From Thermoanaerobaculia bacterium (GTDB lineage: Bacteria; Acidobacteriota; Thermoanaerobaculia; Multivoradales; JAHEKO01): a stretch of DNA of 8,228 nucleotides. Below the pieces are notes generated by a model. That model had not been told where the DNA came from. It saw nothing but the letters and a program-made list of their open reading frames with translations, and did no database searches. The DNA lies in assembly GCA_029287645.1 (NCBI GenBank), contig JARFQS010000168.1, positions 1 to 8,228 on the forward strand. The letters are read 5' to 3'. Every line of letters begins with the position of its first letter. Within the stretch, counting starts at the first letter, position 1. Of the stretch, positions 1-6,913 are shown one piece after another. A program made the position numbers and the translations under genes.

Positions 1-716
1 TCATCGCAGACGACGGTCGGCCAGAGTTGGTCCGGCCGATCCGAGGTGAGAGGGGCAGCGATCGCATCCGCCAGGGAAAGTTGACCGTTGTATAGAGCCA
101 TGCCCACCTGAGCGTCCGCGCCGATCGCGTCGATGGCCGCAATCTCCTCGACCGTCGAGACTCCGCCCGCCACGGTGACCTTCGCCCGACCGGCCCGATC
201 GACGACAGCCCGGGCGCGCTCGAGATCGGTGCCTTCGAGCCGCCCTTCTCGCTCGACAAAGGTGACGAGAAAACCTCCCACCAGATCCTGGAGCTCCGCG
301 ACCCGATCCGGCAAGCGACGCTTCGTCTCGACCTGCCATCCTTCGACCACCACCCGGCTGTCGACACTGTCGACCGCCGCGATCACCCGCTCTCGGGGAA
401 GCTGCCGAAGGAGCTCTGGAGTGGCTGCCGTGCCCAAGATCACCTGCTCCGCTCCCGCATCGAGCCAGTCCAAGGCCGCATCGACGGTTCGTATGCCTCC
501 TCCGACACGACAACGGAAGCGTCGCACCAGACGCTGGATCAGCTCTCGATTCGAACCCCTGCCGAGTGCCGCATCCAGGTCGATGACGGCCAGCTCCCCG
601 GCGACGGAAAAGCGCTCCGCCACCGCCATCGGCTCTCCGGCATCGATCGCCATCTCCTTGCCCCCCACCAGCTGTACGGCGTGACCCTTCATCAGGTCGA
701 TCGACGGTACGATCAT
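1..716 (-). CDS. hisA: HisA, ProFAR isomerase (3' end outside window; probable fusion to a HisI domain)
   Basis: Catalyses the Amadori rearrangement of ProFAR to PRFAR (phosphoribosylformimino-AICAR-P isomerase), supplying HisHF in the cytoplasm. The first 238 codons are visible and no stop occurs before the edge. Seen: a (beta/alpha)8 barrel start with PSIDL (Asp7, first catalytic acid), the half-barrel phosphate motif VGGGIRT (71-77), LGTAA (94-98), a second acid at Asp116 in AAVDS, Thr152 in the loop matching catalytic Thr164 of Thermotoga HisA, and the second phosphate motif VAGGVST (182-188). The loop usually written TDI-x-RDG reads TFVEREG, so this is a divergent HisA, somewhat like eukaryotic HIS6. 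The barrel should end near residue 222. The following SDRPDQLWPTVVCD (225-238) resembles the start of the cyclohydrolase domain of HIS4-type proteins, so the gene probably continues as HisA-HisI. ATG at 716 overlaps the hisF stop (ATGA), with GGAGGT six bases upstream. Confidence 0.9.
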   Translation of the reverse strand, partial: MIVPSIDLMKGHAVQLVGGKEMAIDAGEPMAVAERFSVAGELAVIDLDAALGRGSNRELIQRLVRRFRCRVGGGIRTVDAALDWLDAGAEQVILGTAATPELLRQLPRERVIAAVDSVDSRVVVEGWQVETKRRLPDRVAELQDLVGGFLVTFVEREGRLEGTDLERARAVVDRAGRAKVTVAGGVSTVEEIAAIDAIGADAQVGMALYNGQLSLADAIAAPLTSDRPDQLWPTVVCD

Positions 717-1465
717 CGACGCACCTCCAATCCGAGTTTCTCCAGATCCTCCTTCAAGCTTCGCACCGTGTACTGACCCTCGTGGAAGATGGAGGCGGCC
801 AGAACGGCGTCGGCCCCGGCCCGAATCGCAGCCACCATGTGTTCCGCCCGCGCCGCACCGCCGGAAGCGATGATCGGCACCGTCACAGCCTGACGTATGG
901 CAGCGATGAGCTCGAGGTCGTAGCCATTTCGCGTACCGTCTCGATCCCAGCTGGTCAGCAGAATCTCTCCCACGCCGAGATCCATCGCCCGACGGGCCCA
1001 ATCGATGGCGTCGACATCGAGTCGATCGCGACCCGACCGCACTACGATCGACCACCGGTCTCCATCCACGGCGGCATCGACCGCGAGCACGGTGCACTGA
1101 CTTCCAAAGCGAGCCGCCAAACGAGACAGCAGGCTCGGGTCCTCGACCGCCGCCGTATTGACGGCGACCTTGTCTGCGCCGGCTTCGAGCAGGGACTCCG
1201 CGTCTCCTACCTGGCGCACCCCACCACCCACCGTCACCGGTAAAGGAAGCACCTCTCGGACGGCCCGTACCGTCTCCACCTGGTTATCCCGTTCTTCGGG
1301 AGTCGCACCGACATCGAGAATCACGATCTCGTCTGCGCCTTGCTCGGCATAGCTCTGCGCCAGCTCTACCGGATGACCAGCGTCTCGCAGGCCCTGGAAT
1401 TGCACACCCTTCACCACCCGACCGTCGGCCACATCCAGACATGGAATGACTCGTGGCAACAGCAT
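713..1465 (-). CDS. hisF: HisF, cyclase subunit of imidazole glycerol phosphate synthase
   Basis: With ammonia delivered by HisH, HisF converts PRFAR to imidazole glycerol phosphate and AICAR. The 250-residue product has the normal length for a free-standing HisF. Seen: catalytic Asp11 (PCLDV) and Asp130 (LAVDA) at exactly the family positions, Lys19, phosphate motif VGGGVR (79-84), LLTSWDRDG (169-177, Asp176) and IIASGGA (198-204). The ammonia-gate residues Arg5, Glu46, Lys99 and Glu167 known from Thermotoga HisF are all present, which supports a working HisHF complex. After Asp51 the usual LDITAS reads LDVGAT, a minor divergence. The frame stays open for 82 codons upstream, but that part overlaps hisH and does not resemble HisF. 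ATG at 1465 overlaps the hisH stop by one base (TGATG). A GTG directly before it would give a GTGA overlap and one extra residue, so the start is certain only to within one codon. Confidence 0.96.
   Translation of the reverse strand: MLLPRVIPCLDVADGRVVKGVQFQGLRDAGHPVELAQSYAEQGADEIVILDVGATPEERDNQVETVRAVREVLPLPVTVGGGVRQVGDAESLLEAGADKVAVNTAAVEDPSLLSRLAARFGSQCTVLAVDAAVDGDRWSIVVRSGRDRLDVDAIDWARRAMDLGVGEILLTSWDRDGTRNGYDLELIAAIRQAVTVPIIASGGAARAEHMVAAIRAGADAVLAASIFHEGQYTVRSLKEDLEKLGLEVRR
723..728 (-). promoter_or_regulatory. Shine-Dalgarno of hisA
   Basis: GGAGGT on the minus strand lies 6 nt before the hisA ATG (716-714), inside the last codons of hisF. It is the most canonical ribosome binding site in the operon. 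It suggests hisA is initiated de novo as well as by coupling through the ATGA overlap, and it fixes the start. Confidence 0.75.
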
Positions 1466-2076
1466 CACGATCCCCCTTCTGCCGCCGCCAGCCAACGATG
1501 CACGAGGCGCTGACCCCACGAGCCGGAGAGCTCGGGATGGAACTGACAGCCGAGGACGGTTCCCTTCTCCACACCGGCGACGAAGGGACCGCCATGGTCG
1601 GCGGTCGCCGAGGCCCAACGGGGTGCCGTCTGCAGTCGATAGGAGTTGGCGAAATAGGCGAAGCCGCCCTCGAGGAGTCGGCAGTCGGGACCGACCTCCA
1701 CCCGATTCCAACCCAGCTGCGGCACTCTCACCGAGGCGGGGAATCGACGGACATCGGTTGTCAGGACTCCCAGACCCCGAACGCCTGGTGCCTCCTCGCT
1801 CGACTCGGCCAGAATCTGCAACCCCAAGCAGATCGCCATGGTCGGCCTGCCGAGGCGAATCCTCTCCGCCAAAGGTTCGACGAGACCCGCGCCCCGCAGC
1901 CGTTGCATGACGGAGTCAAAGGCGCCGACCCCTGGAAGCACCAGTGCCGCGGCCGATTCCACCTCCCTCGGTGAGGCCACGAGCACCGGCTCGCCCCCCG
2001 CTCTTCGCAGCGCCGCCATCACAGATGCCAGATTCGCCGCACCCGTGCGCACCACAGCCAGCGATGGGTAGCTCAC
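1465..2076 (-). CDS. hisH: HisH, glutamine amidotransferase subunit of imidazole glycerol phosphate synthase
   Basis: HisH hydrolyses glutamine and channels ammonia into the HisF barrel. The 203-residue product is typical in length for this class I amidotransferase. Seen: oxyanion-strand motif LPGVGAFD (47-54), nucleophile Cys83 in AICLGLQ, and His180 and Glu182 in CQFHPELSG completing the triad. VPQLGWN (118-124) corresponds to the family's VPHMGWN. The family's YFVHSY segment reads YFANSY (141-146), so a commonly conserved His is Asn. The start is GTG at 2076, which overlaps the hisB stop as GTGA and is preceded by AAGGGGAG. It places the first beta-strand (LAVVRTGAANL) directly at the N terminus. 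The upstream in-frame extension lies inside hisB and is not HisH-like. The gene sits between hisB and hisF, and its partner hisF is immediately downstream. Confidence 0.95.
   Translation of the reverse strand: MSYPSLAVVRTGAANLASVMAALRRAGGEPVLVASPREVESAAALVLPGVGAFDSVMQRLRGAGLVEPLAERIRLGRPTMAICLGLQILAESSEEAPGVRGLGVLTTDVRRFPASVRVPQLGWNRVEVGPDCRLLEGGFAYFANSYRLQTAPRWASATADHGGPFVAGVEKGTVLGCQFHPELSGSWGQRLVHRWLAAAEGGS
1472..1478 (-). promoter_or_regulatory. Shine-Dalgarno of hisF
   Basis: AAGGGGG on the minus strand ends 6 nt before the ATG at 1465, within the last codons of hisH. It supports initiation here rather than at the far upstream ATG of the same open frame. Confidence 0.55.
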
Positions 2077-2663
2077 TCCAGGCTCCCCTTGGTGCTCGGC
2101 GGGCCCTGCAGATCCATGGGCTCCAAGGCCTGCCGCAACGCCAGGGCCGTGGCCTTGAAGGCCGCCTCGGCCCGGTGATGATCGTTGGTGCCACGCAGGA
2201 GATCGACGTGGAGAGCGCATCGGGCGCGCATCGCGAAAGAGGTCAGCACGTGCCCTACGTTCTCCGCTGAGAGGCCACCCAGCCGCTCCCGGGTCAGGCC
2301 CAGGTGGATCTCCGGCCAGGGGCGACCCGCCAGGTCCACCACGGCTCGCGCCAGCGACTCGTCCAAGGGCGCATGGGCCGATCCGAAGCGGCGGATGCCA
2401 CCGCGGTCACCGAGCAAACTGTCAACCGCCTCGCCCAGCGCCAAGGCGCAGTCTTCAGCCGTGTGGTGATCATCGACCTGGAGGTCACCGTCGCACGACA
2501 GGCGGAGGTCCCATCCGGCGTGAAAGGCCAGGGCCGAGAGCAGATGATCGAGAAATCCGATGCCGGTGCCTACCTCGAGCCGGCGATTTCCACGCAACTC
2601 CAGATCGACTCTCACCGTCGTCTCGGAGGTTTGTCTGTCGACGCGAATACTCGTTGTCTTCAT
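2073..2663 (-). CDS. hisB: HisB, imidazoleglycerol-phosphate dehydratase (monofunctional)
   Basis: Dehydrates imidazole glycerol phosphate to imidazole acetol phosphate using two Mn ions, in a 24-mer. The 196-residue length is that of the stand-alone dehydratase, so there is no N-terminal histidinol-phosphatase domain as in E. coli HisB. Seen: GFLDHLLSALAFHAGWDL (36-53), the first metal-binding repeat DDHHTAED (64-71), RFGSAHAPLDES (92-103), EIHLGL (118-123), His138 in the NVGHVLTSF segment, and the second metal repeat GTNDHHRAEAAFKA (158-171). ATG at 2663 overlaps the hisC-HAD stop as ATGA and is preceded by AGGAGA with 7-nt spacing. The last 16 residues or so are a variable tail. The phosphatase activity missing from this protein is probably supplied by the HAD domain of the gene just upstream. 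Confidence 0.96.
   Translation of the reverse strand: MKTTSIRVDRQTSETTVRVDLELRGNRRLEVGTGIGFLDHLLSALAFHAGWDLRLSCDGDLQVDDHHTAEDCALALGEAVDSLLGDRGGIRRFGSAHAPLDESLARAVVDLAGRPWPEIHLGLTRERLGGLSAENVGHVLTSFAMRARCALHVDLLRGTNDHHRAEAAFKATALALRQALEPMDLQGPPSTKGSLE
2083..2090 (-). promoter_or_regulatory. Shine-Dalgarno deciding the GTG start of hisH
   Basis: AAGGGGAG on the minus strand lies 6 nt before GTG 2076-2074. Because hisH has no suitable ATG, this site together with the GTGA overlap is what fixes its start. Confidence 0.65.
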
Positions 2664-4375
2664 GGCAAGATCTCCTGAATCTCATTGACGGATCGGAGCA
2701 CCCTCGAGGCGTGCTCGAGGCCCTTTCGGGCCAGCCTCGGATCGTCGGCGGGAGCCGTGACGCCGATCGGCAACACCCCTGCCGAGCGGGCTGCCGAGAT
2801 GTCGTCCGGCGTATCACCGAGCATCCAGGCCCGCTCTACCGCCAAGGCATCCAGAGCCCTCAGCACGGGTTCCGGATCCGGCTTGCTGGGGCCATCTTCG
2901 AGCGTGACGACCGCAGCGAAGAAGTCCTGAACACCATGCATCTCGAGGAAGCGGACAGCATCGGAGCGGGGTCGTCCGGTGACGATCGCCAGGGGGTAGC
3001 GTGCTGCCAGACCCCCCAACAGTTCCCGGTCGATCAGCAAGGGCTCGTCCTTCCACAATCCACACTGGCCGTCGGCACCCTGATAGAGGCCTTCGAACAC
3101 CTCTCGTACTTCCGACAAAGGCTGCTCGACCCCGTGCCGCCGTAGCAACGCTTGCGTCAAGCACCAATCGTTGTTGCTGTTTCCTGCTGCCTTGGCCTCT
3201 GCAATCTCGTCGGGTCCCAGCTCCACGCCGAAAGCGGAGGCCGTCCGAACGATCGCCAATCGGTAGGATCTCGAGACATCGGCAAGAACCCCGTCGAGGT
3301 CGAAAAGCAGAGCTTCCGGCCTCAGCGTCGTACGCACGGATTCCAACAGCCTGTCAGCGAGACTCTCCTCGCTCGGAATGGTGATCCGCAGCCAGGCGTC
3401 CAGACCAGGTCTGCCCGGAAACGAGCGCACCCCGATCCCCAGACCCGCGAGGGCGTCGAGCATCCATTCCGCATCCTGGAAACGTGCGAAGACGAAGTTG
3501 GCCTGTGAATCCATCGCCTCCAGACCCAGCTCCCGCAAGCCTCGTAGGACTCGGCTTCGCTGCCTGACGACTCTCTCGACATGGGACCCCACGCCCTGGG
3601 CTCGCGACAGGAGTCGACGAGCAGCGATCAAGGATGGGGCACTGACCGGGTAGGGTTGACCCGCAGCACGAAGCCACGAGATGACCCGAGGATCTCCCAG
3701 GGCATATCCCACCCGTAGGCCGGCTGCAGCCCACGCCTTGGAGAGCGTTCGGAAGACAACCACGTTCGGCAGCTCGAGAGCCGTCGAAGTCAGGTCTTCG
3801 TCCGCGAACTCGATATAGGCGAGGTCGAGTAGTATGAGCACATTGGGCAGCGTCCGCGCCAAACGCCTCAGCGCTGCGGCGGAAACCACACTGCCAGTCG
3901 GGTTGTTGGGGCTCACCATGGCGATGGCGCAGGTGCGGGACGAGGCTCTCGCAATGGCCTCGTCGACAGGCCACTCGCCAGACCACCAGGAGAGCTCGGT
4001 GACCGATCCACCGCTGAGCAGCACATAGCGCTCCAGCATCTCGAAGCCGGGATTCGTGAGGATCACTTTGCGGCCCGGCGAACAGACGGCCCGCACCCCC
4101 CGTTCCAGCCCATCGTCACCTCCGGCTGTGACCAGAACCTGCTCGCGGTCGAGGCGGAAGAGCTCCGACAGAAGGCTCTCCAATTCCCCGTTCTTCGGGT
4201 ATCGATTCGTGGTGTCGGAGGCCAATCGCAAACTCTCATCCAGCTCTGGCAGAGGGGCACCTGCCTCGTTGGCGTCCAGCCATAGATCGATGCCGCTCCT
4301 GCGGCGGCGGGGCTCGTAGGCGGCGATCTCGGCCACATTCGGCTGTGGACGGACAAGAAGCTCGGGAGCGCTCAT
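2660..4375 (-). CDS. hisC: HisC-HAD fusion: histidinol-phosphate aminotransferase with C-terminal HAD phosphatase
   Basis: A 571-residue two-domain protein. Residues about 1-350 are a fold-type I PLP aminotransferase: NEAGAPLP (36-43), SPNNPTG (155-161), Asp184 and Tyr187 of LDLAYIEF, the PLP-binding Lys213 in RTLSKAWAAAGLRVGY, and carboxylate-binding Arg330 in LRITIP. It converts imidazole acetol phosphate and glutamate to histidinol phosphate. Residues about 354-571 are a complete HAD subfamily IA hydrolase: motif I LFDLDGVLAD (Asp359 nucleophile, Asp361), motif II Thr466 in IVTGRP, motif III Lys498 in SKPDP, motif IV GDTPDD (520-525). The domain boundary lies near nt 3316, with no stop or internal start. 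Context suggests that the HAD domain is the histidinol-phosphate phosphatase, so two consecutive steps would share one chain. This specificity is inferred. From memory, the HAD half resembles the small clade described as TIGR01548. ATG overlaps the hisG stop (ATGA) and has only a weak ribosome site. Confidence 0.93.
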   Translation of the reverse strand: MSAPELLVRPQPNVAEIAAYEPRRRRSGIDLWLDANEAGAPLPELDESLRLASDTTNRYPKNGELESLLSELFRLDREQVLVTAGGDDGLERGVRAVCSPGRKVILTNPGFEMLERYVLLSGGSVTELSWWSGEWPVDEAIARASSRTCAIAMVSPNNPTGSVVSAAALRRLARTLPNVLILLDLAYIEFADEDLTSTALELPNVVVFRTLSKAWAAAGLRVGYALGDPRVISWLRAAGQPYPVSAPSLIAARRLLSRAQGVGSHVERVVRQRSRVLRGLRELGLEAMDSQANFVFARFQDAEWMLDALAGLGIGVRSFPGRPGLDAWLRITIPSEESLADRLLESVRTTLRPEALLFDLDGVLADVSRSYRLAIVRTASAFGVELGPDEIAEAKAAGNSNNDWCLTQALLRRHGVEQPLSEVREVFEGLYQGADGQCGLWKDEPLLIDRELLGGLAARYPLAIVTGRPRSDAVRFLEMHGVQDFFAAVVTLEDGPSKPDPEPVLRALDALAVERAWMLGDTPDDISAARSAGVLPIGVTAPADDPRLARKGLEHASRVLRSVNEIQEILP

Positions 4376-5238
4376 GGCACGATCTGCGCGAGACGGGTGA
4401 CGACGAGATCGGTCCCCCCACGACTCTTCAAGACGGGAATGACCGCGGGCAGCTCGAGGCTCGGAACCGCCGCTTTGACAGCAAACCCTGCCTCACCGGC
4501 GAGTGTCGAAACCGTCGGCTCGCGCATGCAGGGCAGCACCTCGAGGACACTCTCCAGTCGATCCTGCGATACGTTGACTTCCACCATGACTCGACTCCGC
4601 GCCTCCAAGACAGATCGGACGAGAAGCACGAAGTCCTCGATCGCCCGACGCCGGCCAGAGTCCCGCAAGGCCTCGGGGCTGGCGTACAGCCGGGTCGAAG
4701 ACTCCATGAGCTGATCGACGATCTGGAGACCGTTGGCAACGAGGGTCGAGCCCGTCGCCGTGTTGTCCACGATCAGATCGGCATCTTCGGGCGGAAAGAC
4801 CTCTGTCGCTCCATAGGAGTGCACGAAGCTCGCCTCGATCCCACGCGCCTGGATCCAACTACGGGTGAGCCGCTCATACTCGGAGGCGACCACCAGAGGT
4901 CGCCCTGGCAGGCGTTCTCCTTCGAGCAGATCCGCTGGTGCCGCCGCAACCAGCCGAACCGGATCCAGGCCGGTGTCTTGAAGCTCCTCGAGGCGGCCAT
5001 CCAGCTCCGAGACCCAGTCAGCTCCTGAAAAACCGAGATCCCGAGAGCCCACCTGCAGCATCTCGATGATGTTCTGCGGTTTGAGAACCTTGACCTCGCA
5101 GTCAGGGAGCGAAATGTGAGGCCTGTAGCCCCTCGCGGTGTCGCTGAGGTGGATTCCGGCCCCCCTGAGGAGATCGACCACACCCTCGTTCATGCGGCCT
5201 TTCGGAATCGCCAGTCGAAGCTTCTGTCTCGTCGGCAT
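4372..5238 (-). CDS. hisG: HisG, ATP phosphoribosyltransferase (long form)
   Basis: First committed step: ATP plus PRPP gives phosphoribosyl-ATP. The 288-residue product is the long form. Residues about 1-212 are the periplasmic-binding-protein-like catalytic domains, with LRLAIPKGRM at the N terminus, LGFSGADWV (68-76), SYGATEVFPP (141-150) and the PRPP loop DNTATGSTLVANGL (158-171). Residues about 213-288 form the ACT-like regulatory domain (VMVEVNVSQDRLESVLEVLPCM, PTVSTLAG), the usual site of histidine feedback inhibition, so no HisZ partner is expected. ATG at 5238 is preferred because GGAGGA lies 4 nt upstream and the family begins with KLRLAIPKGR. A start 15 codons further upstream would translate the ribosome site itself. 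It is the first structural gene after the attenuator, and its stop overlaps hisC. Confidence 0.96.
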   Translation of the reverse strand: MPTRQKLRLAIPKGRMNEGVVDLLRGAGIHLSDTARGYRPHISLPDCEVKVLKPQNIIEMLQVGSRDLGFSGADWVSELDGRLEELQDTGLDPVRLVAAAPADLLEGERLPGRPLVVASEYERLTRSWIQARGIEASFVHSYGATEVFPPEDADLIVDNTATGSTLVANGLQIVDQLMESSTRLYASPEALRDSGRRRAIEDFVLLVRSVLEARSRVMVEVNVSQDRLESVLEVLPCMREPTVSTLAGEAGFAVKAAVPSLELPAVIPVLKSRGGTDLVVTRLAQIVP

Positions 5239-5249: not shown

Positions 5250-5281
5250 CGCCTCCCCGACCGACGCTTCGCTGCAGAAGC

Positions 5282-5308
5282 AAAAAGCGCCGGCTCGGGG
5301 CCGGCGCT
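5282..5308 (-). terminator. Intrinsic terminator of the his attenuator (segments 3:4)
   Basis: On the minus strand AGCGCCGGC (5308-5300) and GCCGGCGCT (5294-5286) form a perfect 9-bp, GC-rich stem with loop CCCGA, followed at once by a run of T (5286-5282). It lies 27 nt beyond the leader-peptide stop and 43 nt before the hisG ATG. Its position inside the leader, not directly after the upstream gene, marks it as an attenuator. It would also stop readthrough from the glycosyltransferase/nucleosidase unit when histidine is plentiful. Confidence 0.9.
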
Positions 5309-5382
5309 CTGGTATCAGTCTCTTGGACTCGGGTCTACACCATCACTCCGCCCCGTCTGGGGTGGTCATGGGAATGATGGTG
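5296..5382 (-). promoter_or_regulatory. his attenuator: mutually exclusive pause hairpin and antiterminator
   Basis: Two exclusive folds can be read by eye in the minus-strand RNA. Segment 1, within the His codons (CACCATCATTCC, 5382-5371), pairs over 12 positions with segment 2 (GGAGTGATGGTG, 5349-5338), with one G-U pair. A CCCC/GGGG hairpin (5362-5359 with 5354-5351) sits inside the loop. Alternatively CGGGGCGG (5355-5348) pairs with CCGGCCCCG (5304-5296, one bulged G), and inside that TGGTGT (5342-5337) pairs with ATACCA (5315-5310) and AGTC (5329-5326) with GACT (5320-5317). The second fold consumes five bases of the terminator's left arm and so should act as antiterminator. A ribosome stalled on the His codons would block segment 1 and favour it. 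No folding energies were computed. Confidence 0.75.
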
Positions 5383-5400
5383 ATGCCGGGTCGTGAACAT
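5335..5400 (-). CDS. hisL: HisL, histidine operon leader peptide
   Basis: A 21-codon open frame from ATG (5400) to TAG (5335) with core RHHHHSHDH: six His codons (residues 6-9, 11 and 13, four CAT and two CAC). It is the hallmark of ribosome-mediated attenuation of his operons, comparable to E. coli HisL with its seven consecutive His codons. Translation in cis senses charged histidyl-tRNA; the peptide itself needs no function. It lies about 14 nt after the predicted transcription start, 27 nt before the terminator and 97 nt before hisG. The ribosome site is weak (GAGTTGGAACC before the ATG). The codons after the His cluster (Pro-Arg-Arg-Gly-Gly) double as antiterminator sequence. No homology beyond the His run is claimed. 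Confidence 0.88.
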   Translation of the reverse strand: MFTTRHHHHSHDHPRRGGVMV

Positions 5401-5421
5401 GGTTCCAACTCGCTAGGCGTG

Positions 5422-5451
5422 AGGCTAACCCGAACTCTCGGCGAGTGTCAA
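5422..5451 (-). promoter_or_regulatory. Predicted sigma-70-type promoter of the his operon
   Basis: The minus strand has a perfect -35 hexamer TTGACA (5451-5446), an 18-nt spacer, and TAGCCT (5427-5422), which keeps the strongest -10 positions T1, A2 and T6. The predicted start is near A5414, giving a very short untranslated region before the leader ATG at 5400. The -35 box contains the TGA stop of the upstream gene, so the promoter begins exactly where that gene ends. The -10 is weak, and sigma consensus in this organism is unknown. Confidence 0.6.
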
Positions 5452-6056
5452 TCGGATTCTCGGTAGCCGAGGATCTCGCTCATCCGTCTCAGGAGCTCGG
5501 ACACCGTCGGGCAGGCCACCCGAACCAGACTCTCGACTCGGTCGGCTGTCAGGCTGCTCAACTCGTCACCTCGATTGTCCGAAACGACTTTGAGCACCTG
5601 CACGAGTCCGGGCCTGGAGACCCGGTTGGCGGCGGCGAAGAAGCCCGACGCCTCCATGTCGTAGGCCGCCTCGGTGGCATACACCGTTTCCGGTCGATCG
5701 ACCGTGCAGACGGTAGCTGTCGGACAACTGATTCGGAACGGAATGCTCGGCTTCCACGACCGCCCGGTGGCGAATTCCCGGATCTCCTCGGCCAGCAGAC
5801 AGGTCCCAGGAGAGAGATCGGCGTGACCCGCGATACCCACATTGAGCCATGCGTGGTGTGCCTTCTGGCTCATCCGCTCGGCAATCGCCTCCACTGCCCG
5901 GCGGGAACGCTGCCGCCCCGGCCCGCAGATTACGAGGTCGATGCCAGCACCAGAATGGGCGGGCTGCGATCCGCTCCCGCTCCCGCCGCTTTGCGCTCCC
6001 AGAACTCGGGCCAGGCCACGAGCTTCAGCAGGCAGGGCGACGACGAGGTGGATCAT
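5448..6056 (-). CDS. Nucleoside phosphorylase / MTA-SAH nucleosidase superfamily protein
   Basis: A 202-residue cytosolic protein of the PNP/UDP superfamily, which cleaves N-glycosidic bonds of nucleosides hydrolytically or with phosphate. Seen: N-terminal strand MIHLVVALPAEARGL with Glu11 at the position of the MTA/SAH nucleosidase general acid, NVGIAGHADL (72-81) as the glycine-rich core, YDMEASGFF (132-140) with the Met-Glu pair that binds the ribose, and Asp160 in VVSDN, the position of the catalytic Asp. CPTATVCTVDRPET (111-124) replaces the usual purine-specificity region. At 202 residues it is shorter than typical MTA/SAH nucleosidases (about 230). Futalosine hydrolase and hopanoid-associated phosphorylase are related options, but I cannot assign the substrate. 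ATG at 6056 overlaps the glycosyltransferase stop (ATGA) and has GGAGAG 5 nt upstream. Its stop lies inside the -35 box of the his promoter. Confidence 0.8.
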   Translation of the reverse strand: MIHLVVALPAEARGLARVLGAQSGGSGSGSQPAHSGAGIDLVICGPGRQRSRRAVEAIAERMSQKAHHAWLNVGIAGHADLSPGTCLLAEEIREFATGRSWKPSIPFRISCPTATVCTVDRPETVYATEAAYDMEASGFFAAANRVSRPGLVQVLKVVSDNRGDELSSLTADRVESLVRVACPTVSELLRRMSEILGYRESD

Positions 6057-6913
6057 GGGGGCTCTCCGGCCACCGCCCCGCACCTCCAGCGCTCGAGGCG
6101 GGCCTCGTACTCGGCAGCCTCTTCGACCCTGCCTCGCTTGCGGGCACCCGCCAGGTAGATCTGTAGCTTCTCGAGCAGCATCGCCAACGCGGCAGCCTGA
6201 TCATCCTCTGAAAGACGATCCTCGCGCAGGATCTTCTCCAGCGCCTGGATGCGAAAACGATCCAGCCCCCAGATGCGACTCGACAGCTGGTCCTCGTGCC
6301 CTCCGTACTTCACCACCAGCGGCTCGTCGACGTAGAGGACCGGATGGCGGCTGCAGATGCGAAGCCAGAGATCGTAGTCCTCGCAAGCAGGTAATCCCTC
6401 GTCGAACAAGCCGACTTCGTCGAAGACGCTGCGATGGATCAGGATCGACGAAGGCGACATCGCGCACAGCGGCAAACAGCGCTTGAAGATCCAACCGCCA
6501 TGCTTGGCGTGGATCTGCCGTGGATTCACGCGCCTGCCTCTCCGGATCCAGATCTCGTCGGTGTGGCAGATTCGCAACTCCGGGTGATCTCGCAGTGCTG
6601 CCAGTTGGCGTTCGAGCTTCTCAGGCCGCCATTCATCGTCTGAGTCCAGGAGCGCTATCCACTCACCCGTCGAGGCCTCGATTCCCCGATTGCGTGCTGC
6701 GCTGACGCCGCGGTTCTCCTGCCGCAGGATGCGAGCCTCCGGAAACTGCCCTGCGATGAGCTCGACAGTATCGTCGGTGGATCCATCGTCAACGACGATC
6801 AACTCGGCAGGCGGACGCGTCTGCGTCGTTACCGACTCGAGGGCGCGCGGCAACACCGCAGCCCTATCGAAGGTAGGGACGATTACACTGACGTCTTCAG
6901 ATCGGCAAGTCAC
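6053..6913 (-). CDS. Family 2 glycosyltransferase (GT-A fold)
   Basis: A 286-residue inverting GT2-type transferase, expected to move a sugar from a nucleotide-sugar onto a polysaccharide, lipid or protein acceptor at the cytosolic membrane face. Seen: strand VSVIVPTFDRAAVLPRALESV (8-28), nucleotide-binding VDDGSTDDT (41-49), ENRGVSAARNRGI (66-78), the metal-binding DSDD (90-93) after WIALL, and the ED pair (178-179) in CEDYDLWLR typical of the catalytic base region. No membrane segment is visible. The charged, helical last 60 residues or so are probably a tail. The start is GTG at 6913, 9 nt after the peptidase stop; no strong ribosome site is visible, so the exact start is less certain than the frame. 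The gene overlaps the downstream nucleosidase by 4 nt. Substrate unknown. Confidence 0.88.
   Translation of the reverse strand: MTCRSEDVSVIVPTFDRAAVLPRALESVTTQTRPPAELIVVDDGSTDDTVELIAGQFPEARILRQENRGVSAARNRGIEASTGEWIALLDSDDEWRPEKLERQLAALRDHPELRICHTDEIWIRRGRRVNPRQIHAKHGGWIFKRCLPLCAMSPSSILIHRSVFDEVGLFDEGLPACEDYDLWLRICSRHPVLYVDEPLVVKYGGHEDQLSSRIWGLDRFRIQALEKILREDRLSEDDQAAALAMLLEKLQIYLAGARKRGRVEEAAEYEARLERWRCGAVAGEPP

Follow-up and report, generated by a model that had tools for sequence, protein, structure and literature searches.

The window analysed here is the whole stretch of 8,228 nucleotides of contig JARFQS010000168.1 of Thermoanaerobaculia bacterium, and most of it is occupied by a histidine biosynthesis operon, which is arranged on the minus strand in the order hisG-hisC::HAD-hisB-hisH-hisF-hisA. 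The genes of the operon are as follows:

4372..5238, minus strand: hisG, long form with a C-terminal domain (Pfam HisG and HisG_C), ATG at 5238
2660..4375, minus strand: hisC fused to a HAD hydrolase domain (Aminotran_1_2 and HAD families)
2073..2663, minus strand: hisB, imidazoleglycerol-phosphate dehydratase (IGPD)
1465..2076, minus strand: hisH, glutamine amidotransferase, named from the GATase family and operon position, many relatives having the same order
713..1468, minus strand: hisF (His_biosynth), named from position and sequence, many relatives having the same order
1..716, minus strand: hisA (His_biosynth), named from family and order, continuing to the contig end

The HAD domain fused in frame to hisC is likely the histidinol-phosphatase that is otherwise missing, and the operon extends past the end of the window contig. 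In many relatives, a HAD domain is also found after HisC at the same position.

The region in front of hisG had been described in an earlier note as containing a -35 box, a 21-codon leader with six His codons in eight residues and a terminator 43 nt before hisG, and all of these are indeed present, in order and on the minus strand. The features, together with the segments that are predicted to pair, are listed below:

5446..5451, minus strand: -35 box TTGACA (sequence), sharing bases with the upstream ORF's stop codon
5422..5427, minus strand: candidate -10 TAGCCT (sequence), 18-nt spacer, weak with a 3/6 match
5335..5400, minus strand: leader ORF MFTTRHHHHSHDHPRRGGVMV, 21 codons plus TAG
5362..5385, minus strand: segment 1, regulatory stretch HHHHSHDH, six His codons in eight residues
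5338..5382, minus strand: 1:2 hairpin, in which the His codons 5382-5371 pair with 5349-5338, a 12-pair helix in the free fold
5337..5354, minus strand: segment 2, 5′ arm of the predicted antiterminator, GGGGCGGAGTGATGGTGT, extending into the leader stop codon (folding)
5297..5315, minus strand: segment 3, 3′ partner of the predicted antiterminator, ATACCAGAGCGCCGGCCCC, shared with the terminator 5′ arm (folding, and own-versus-swapped pairing in 34 loci)
5284..5310, minus strand: intrinsic terminator (3:4), 11 pairs, with the T-run to about 5281

That is to say, a short predicted frame carrying codons for the product of the pathway stands before hisG, and an intrinsic terminator lies between this leader and the first gene, with 43 nt between the end of its T-run and the hisG ATG. 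Reading the sequence upstream of the leader ATG by eye gave no clear Shine–Dalgarno sequence. The promoter of the window scores 9/12 by a looser count, and the promoter scanner called none in the window.

Folding of the window leader RNA gave -56.9 kcal/mol versus -39.6 ± 3.9 for shuffles (z -4.45). The free RNA folds into the hairpin between the His codons and segment 2 (12 pairs; z of this pairing -3.9) plus the terminator. Segment 2 can pair either with the terminator 5′ arm or with the His codons, each pairing excluding the other. When a ribosome is placed on codon 7 or 9 and the RNA reaches up to the terminator loop, segment 2 pairs with 5315-5297 (-26.9 and -28.4, respectively); when the ribosome is at the stop codon, the antiterminator is absent from the folded nascent RNA (-14.9). 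For the complete leader at equilibrium, folding prefers the terminator for every ribosome position tried, and any action of the antiterminator would therefore have to be kinetic. An antiterminator that excludes the terminator and is set by the position of the ribosome is a prediction from folding and fitted pairing.

The proposed mechanism is as follows. When histidine is plentiful, the ribosome would reach the TAG and cover segment 2, and the terminator would form. When histidine is short, the ribosome would stall on codons 6–9 and segment 2 would be released; the freed segment would then pair with the terminator 5′ arm, and the polymerase would read into hisG. Such control would work without a separate regulator protein, so that the operon could take its control along between genomes.

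Another reading is that the hairpin just terminates the upstream gene, that the hisG promoter follows the hairpin and that the His-rich frame is incidental. With its -35 box lying across the upstream stop codon and a poor -10, the leader promoter in the window is only a candidate, which speaks for this reading; against it, only about 43 nt are left between the T-run and hisG, and the remaining evidence on it comes from relatives.

For this comparison, 66 named-genome loci were fetched by HisG alone, and L079, which begins within hisG, was left out; the 65 others, the window and the same-family loci L002 and L003 make up 68 upstream regions whose choice did not depend on the presence of a leader; among these, the regions of L036 (186 nt) and L088 (228 nt) are short. 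A mini-ORF with at least four His in eight residues is found in 43/68 of these regions versus 3/68 on the antisense strand, and in shuffled regions the mean is 0.26 and the maximum 1 of 68 (50 rounds). At the stricter level of at least five His in eight, the counts are 39/68 sense versus 0 antisense. On the sense strand, Ser ranks second after His, with 17 versus 6 antisense. By record titles and tree groups, the carriers of a His leader span ten phyla. Among the 65 named loci, whose phylum labels are submitters' titles and which are nearly all metagenome bins, carriers number 13/18 in Planctomycetota, 5/16 in Myxococcota, 5/5 in Gemmatimonadota, 6/10 in Spirochaetota, 4/4 in Bacteroidota, 2/4 in Pseudomonadota, 1/3 in Armatimonadota, one of one each in Verrucomicrobiota, Zixiibacteriota and Acidobacteriota, and 1/2 of the unplaced.

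The earlier note had proposed aligning the regions upstream of hisG, and with this done the leader-bearing relatives mostly keep both the His-rich frame and the terminator, an outcome that does not refute the note. By a strict scan, most carriers, though not every one, have a terminator in the stretch from the leader to hisG, and the core CGCCGGC..GCCGGCG (ACGCCGGCC...GGCCGGCGTTTT) is common to many relatives from several phyla. No such leader is present in 25/68 hisG regions, including 11/16 from Myxococcota and four Treponema records, so the attenuator is common, not universal; a 3-His frame and a terminator are nonetheless present in three of these 25 (L049, L055 and L092). On the HisG tree, where 42/66 rows are labelled as carriers, 13 changes are needed for leader presence or absence. 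As for promoters, TTGACA-type sequences scoring at least 9/12 precede 16/43 leaders, with 0.8 expected from shuffles, and L002 and L003 have TTGACA-17-GATAAT ahead of their leaders.

Two side observations were made among these loci. First, L043 and L066 (both 5501-6100) have nearly identical Myxococcota hisG genes, and their DNA similarity stops just past the terminator; L066 retains the leader and terminator, while L043 has a different sequence there, so that the attenuator has either been lost naturally from L043 or been cut off by a break in the assembly. Second, L040, L051 and L055 (titled Planctomycetota, Phycisphaerales and Phycisphaeraceae) have in common a leader-like frame with spaced His codons, of the ALHQLQHCMKPHA type, with terminator-like hairpins 3′ of it; this frame is possibly a variant with interrupted His codons.

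The fit between segment 2 and the terminator was examined in sets from which L065, L087 and L091 (no clear terminator) and the close kin L003, L056, L057, L059, L068, L080 and L081 were left out; the 3-His leaders L049, L055 and L092 were added to the stop-coverage and swap tests, the 34-locus swap test and later tests do not include L078 or L072, for which a wrong hairpin had been chosen, and L040 and L051, in which the pattern was not found, are in neither of these sets. In the 34 loci, pairing with the own terminator arm is better than with swapped arms by -2.04 kcal/mol, a value as low as which was reached in 0/20000 permutations, and 22/34 loci lean in the expected direction. The difference is -2.47 when L072 and L078 are kept (36 loci), -1.68 (0/20000) minus the strongest locus, -1.28 (19/20000) minus the three strongest, and -1.25 (27/20000) with bases near the stop codon only. 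Segment 2 often takes in the leader stop codon (e.g., ...CCGGTGA), which lies within the best duplex in 25/36 loci versus 16.4 expected. The z against single-locus shuffles has a median of -1.5, with 11/42 below -2, and high G+C is common to the pairing tests.

In 31 loci, from which the same rows without a clear terminator, close kin, L072 and L078 are left out, the probability of the antiterminator is 0.74 with the ribosome stalled versus 0.39 with the ribosome at the stop codon. The stalled-minus-stop difference is 0.34 versus 0.11 for shuffled linkers (p 8e-7), and it exceeds 0.3 in only 15/31 loci. The pairing of the His codons with segment 2 has a median z of -2.04, and 21/31 loci are below -1.5.

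Against the reading of the hairpin as terminator of the upstream gene there stand, then, a His-rich frame, usually with its terminator, that recurs before hisG in records of ten phyla, a segment 2 fitted to its own terminator, and the excess of TTGACA-type promoters before the leaders of relatives; this reading is considered quite improbable. It is very probable that leader and terminator make up a ribosome-mediated transcription attenuator of the hisG operon, as modelled here, which likely senses charged tRNA-His. The His-codon attenuation predicted in the earlier note thus gains support from folding, from relatives and from the fitted antiterminator arms. Its further statement that the host is not an enteric also holds: the hisG locus of the same-phylum genome G324 is found letter for letter inside L035 (Acidobacteria bacterium Prado002).

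A covariance model, R1, was made from 26 of 29 prepared named loci, with L082, L083 and L084 omitted for their differing terminators, the same-phylum L035 included and the window excluded. In the window, its match is:

5275..5376, minus strand: R1 match, 50.5 bits, E 2.7e-9, the window being outside the training set

This is the sole R1 match of the window genome at E <= 0.001 under strict filters. On 52 sources, R1 gave 35 matches up to E 1. The 16 with E <0.001 are all immediately before hisG on the same strand (L003/L121 and L002/L120 being the same places counted twice), and the other 19 (E 0.001 to 1) include the same hairpins read on the opposite strand and sites where no leader is known. 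On 396 genomes of the phylum, searched with strict filters under which the doubled-leader genomes described below are not listed, so that the figures are no census, 20 genomes had a match at E 0.001, with 22 matches in total. The eight matches of at least 42.8 bits all have a His-rich leader; seven are before hisG, and the contig stretch of the eighth ends 76 nt away from it. Chance matching of R1 to ordinary terminators was considered as well, and it fits the 14/22 matches under 40 bits, of which 12 were inspected and none had a His-rich frame.

It may also be asked whether the leader encodes a functional His-rich small peptide, e.g., a metal-binding one, rather than a regulatory stall, since His-rich peptides can bind metals. 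Between groups, the peptides vary in sequence and length outside the His run; the frame precedes hisG and lies beside a switchable terminator; and the 12 weaker R1 matches inspected lack such a frame. All of this argues against a functional peptide, which is judged very improbable.

At threshold, Rfam gave nothing in the window, 13 named loci and 14 phylum loci (28 stretches). RF00514 (His_leader, gathering 49 bits) found nothing in the window up to E 1, which places the window outside that family as modelled; its best scores in the 14 phylum loci were 31.9 and 29.1 bits (L153 and L157), below gathering. The sole Rfam family that aligned with the window was Thr_leader RF00506 (24.1 bits, gathering 55, E 0.42), likely because a codon run and a GC-rich terminator look alike. 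It is exceedingly improbable that another histidine sensor governs the operon, such as the T-box or HisR-type repressor systems that control his genes in Firmicutes according to the cited part of PMC9413887, as the window has neither a T-box match in Rfam up to E 1 nor any other Rfam match at threshold, and the leader accounts for the region. Going beyond the earlier note, the element is, on sequence grounds, recognisable as a predicted RNA family before long-form hisG across phyla.

Within the phylum, HisG was found at E 1e-30 in 122/396 genomes, and the best 29 other HisG loci were examined for leaders (L141 is the same as L035). A frame with at least four His in eight is present in 18 of these best 29, and in 14 of the 18 a terminator of -15 kcal/mol or better lies within 110 nt of the frame; L150-L152 have the frame without such a terminator, and the His-rich frames of L161 and L166 appear to be there by chance. 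Of the hisG loci examined, the five most distant (L164-L168, 35-36% identity) have no leader except the remote frame of L166. In addition, L145, L147, L148 and L149, which are the four HisG carriers among the six genomes of their order, have two His-rich leaders in series within 500 nt before hisG, and a separate terminator belongs to each leader; L146 may show this doubling in a weaker form. A TTGACA-TATATC promoter lies ahead of the first leader in L147-L149. R1 detects both modules at E <0.001 in L147, L148 and L149, and those of L145 only at E 0.25 and 0.33. To our knowledge, no doubled His attenuator has been known.

The operon is patchily distributed among the close kin of the window. 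In its family (f1, G000-G017), HisG is present in 3/18 genomes and HisB in 2/18, and 0/8 high-quality genomes have either; each of the three genomes with HisG also carries a His leader. As far as genome sequences tell, the family looks largely histidine-auxotrophic. Mis-binning of the window contig was ruled out: both same-genus genomes (91% and 84% complete) have the S9 peptidase (86-88% identical) and the glycosyltransferase (78-79%) in unchanged order, and the contig is therefore native. At the corresponding site, the his operon is absent in both of these genomes, which have there a nucleosidase-like ORF, followed by a small ORF and then by a sodium:alanine symporter (Pfam, G002); DNA similarity to both stops at 6101, in the last glycosyltransferase codons. 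In G017, the his operon and this gene row are on different contigs.

The ORF at 5448-6056, between glycosyltransferase and leader, which we take to be MTAN (nucleosidase), had no Pfam match at 1e-5. It shares 39-40% identity with its positional counterparts in the two same-genus genomes; these counterparts are 92% alike, and because the identity of the window ORF is low beside neighbours at 78-88%, this ORF may have arrived together with the his operon. The distribution as a whole reads as a gain of the operon along with its leader, and repeated loss among kin, with the operon retained here, is possible. A separate gain of the his operons of the window and G017 was considered as well: the two stand apart on the HisG tree, G017 being in the starred clade with Gemmatimonadota and Bacteroidota, but a single clade for both is compatible with the AU test (p 0.47), and they may share one origin.

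An attenuator before hisG in records of ten phyla suggests a general route for the control of histidine synthesis, and it has probably escaped notice, as gene callers pass over so short a leader and the 28 scanned stretches fall below the Rfam threshold. It is speculated, with the balance leaning slightly against, that one homologous attenuator RNA moves with long-form hisG operons among at least ten phyla as a self-regulating cassette, which would need only the ribosome, polymerase and tRNA-His of the host, would give auxotrophic lineages a pre-wired pathway and would have been doubled in some Acidobacteriota. If this is true, two His checkpoints lie ahead of one operon in some Acidobacteriota, which raises the question of what benefit a second checkpoint of the same kind brings; whether biosynthetic operons spread more easily with the regulation in their own RNA can now be tested.

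His attenuation is the textbook mechanism of enterics, and the anatomy of the enteric his leader serves here for comparison. Like the window, the his attenuator of E. coli and Salmonella (RF00514) has a run of His codons in its leader peptide, and a terminator that can be switched lies directly before hisG (in part after PMC9413887). It differs in that the layout of the window is compact, with an antiterminator arm that reaches the leader stop codon and the terminator core CGCCGGC. PMC9413887 also describes His attenuators in Firmicutes, where His-codon leader peptides with a terminator and antiterminator are likewise predicted before his genes; these belong to another phylum and are set beside the window by description. 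His attenuators of hisZ in C. difficile and the B. cereus group are cited in a passage of PMC4833913. The threonine operon leader RF00506 differs from the window in the amino acid concerned, as the window has regulatory His codons before a his operon. For the doubled leaders predicted in L145 and L147-L149, the nearest likeness is Salmonella mgtCBR, which also has two leader ORFs in series; the mgtCBR leaders sense different signals (ATP and proline), as the cited part of PMC3641672 describes, whereas both doubled leaders of the relatives carry His codons. The passages drawn on from PMC9413887, PMC2965389, PMC4833913, PMC2864571 and PMC8305728 place His attenuators in Proteobacteria and some Firmicutes. 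The wide range reported here is apparently undescribed, and the surveys of Vitreschak 2004 and Lopatovskaya 2010, represented here by the passages that cite them, may name further phyla. In summary, the mechanism is classical, and what is new is the host range, the predicted RNA family beyond Rfam in the scanned stretches and the doubled form in relatives.
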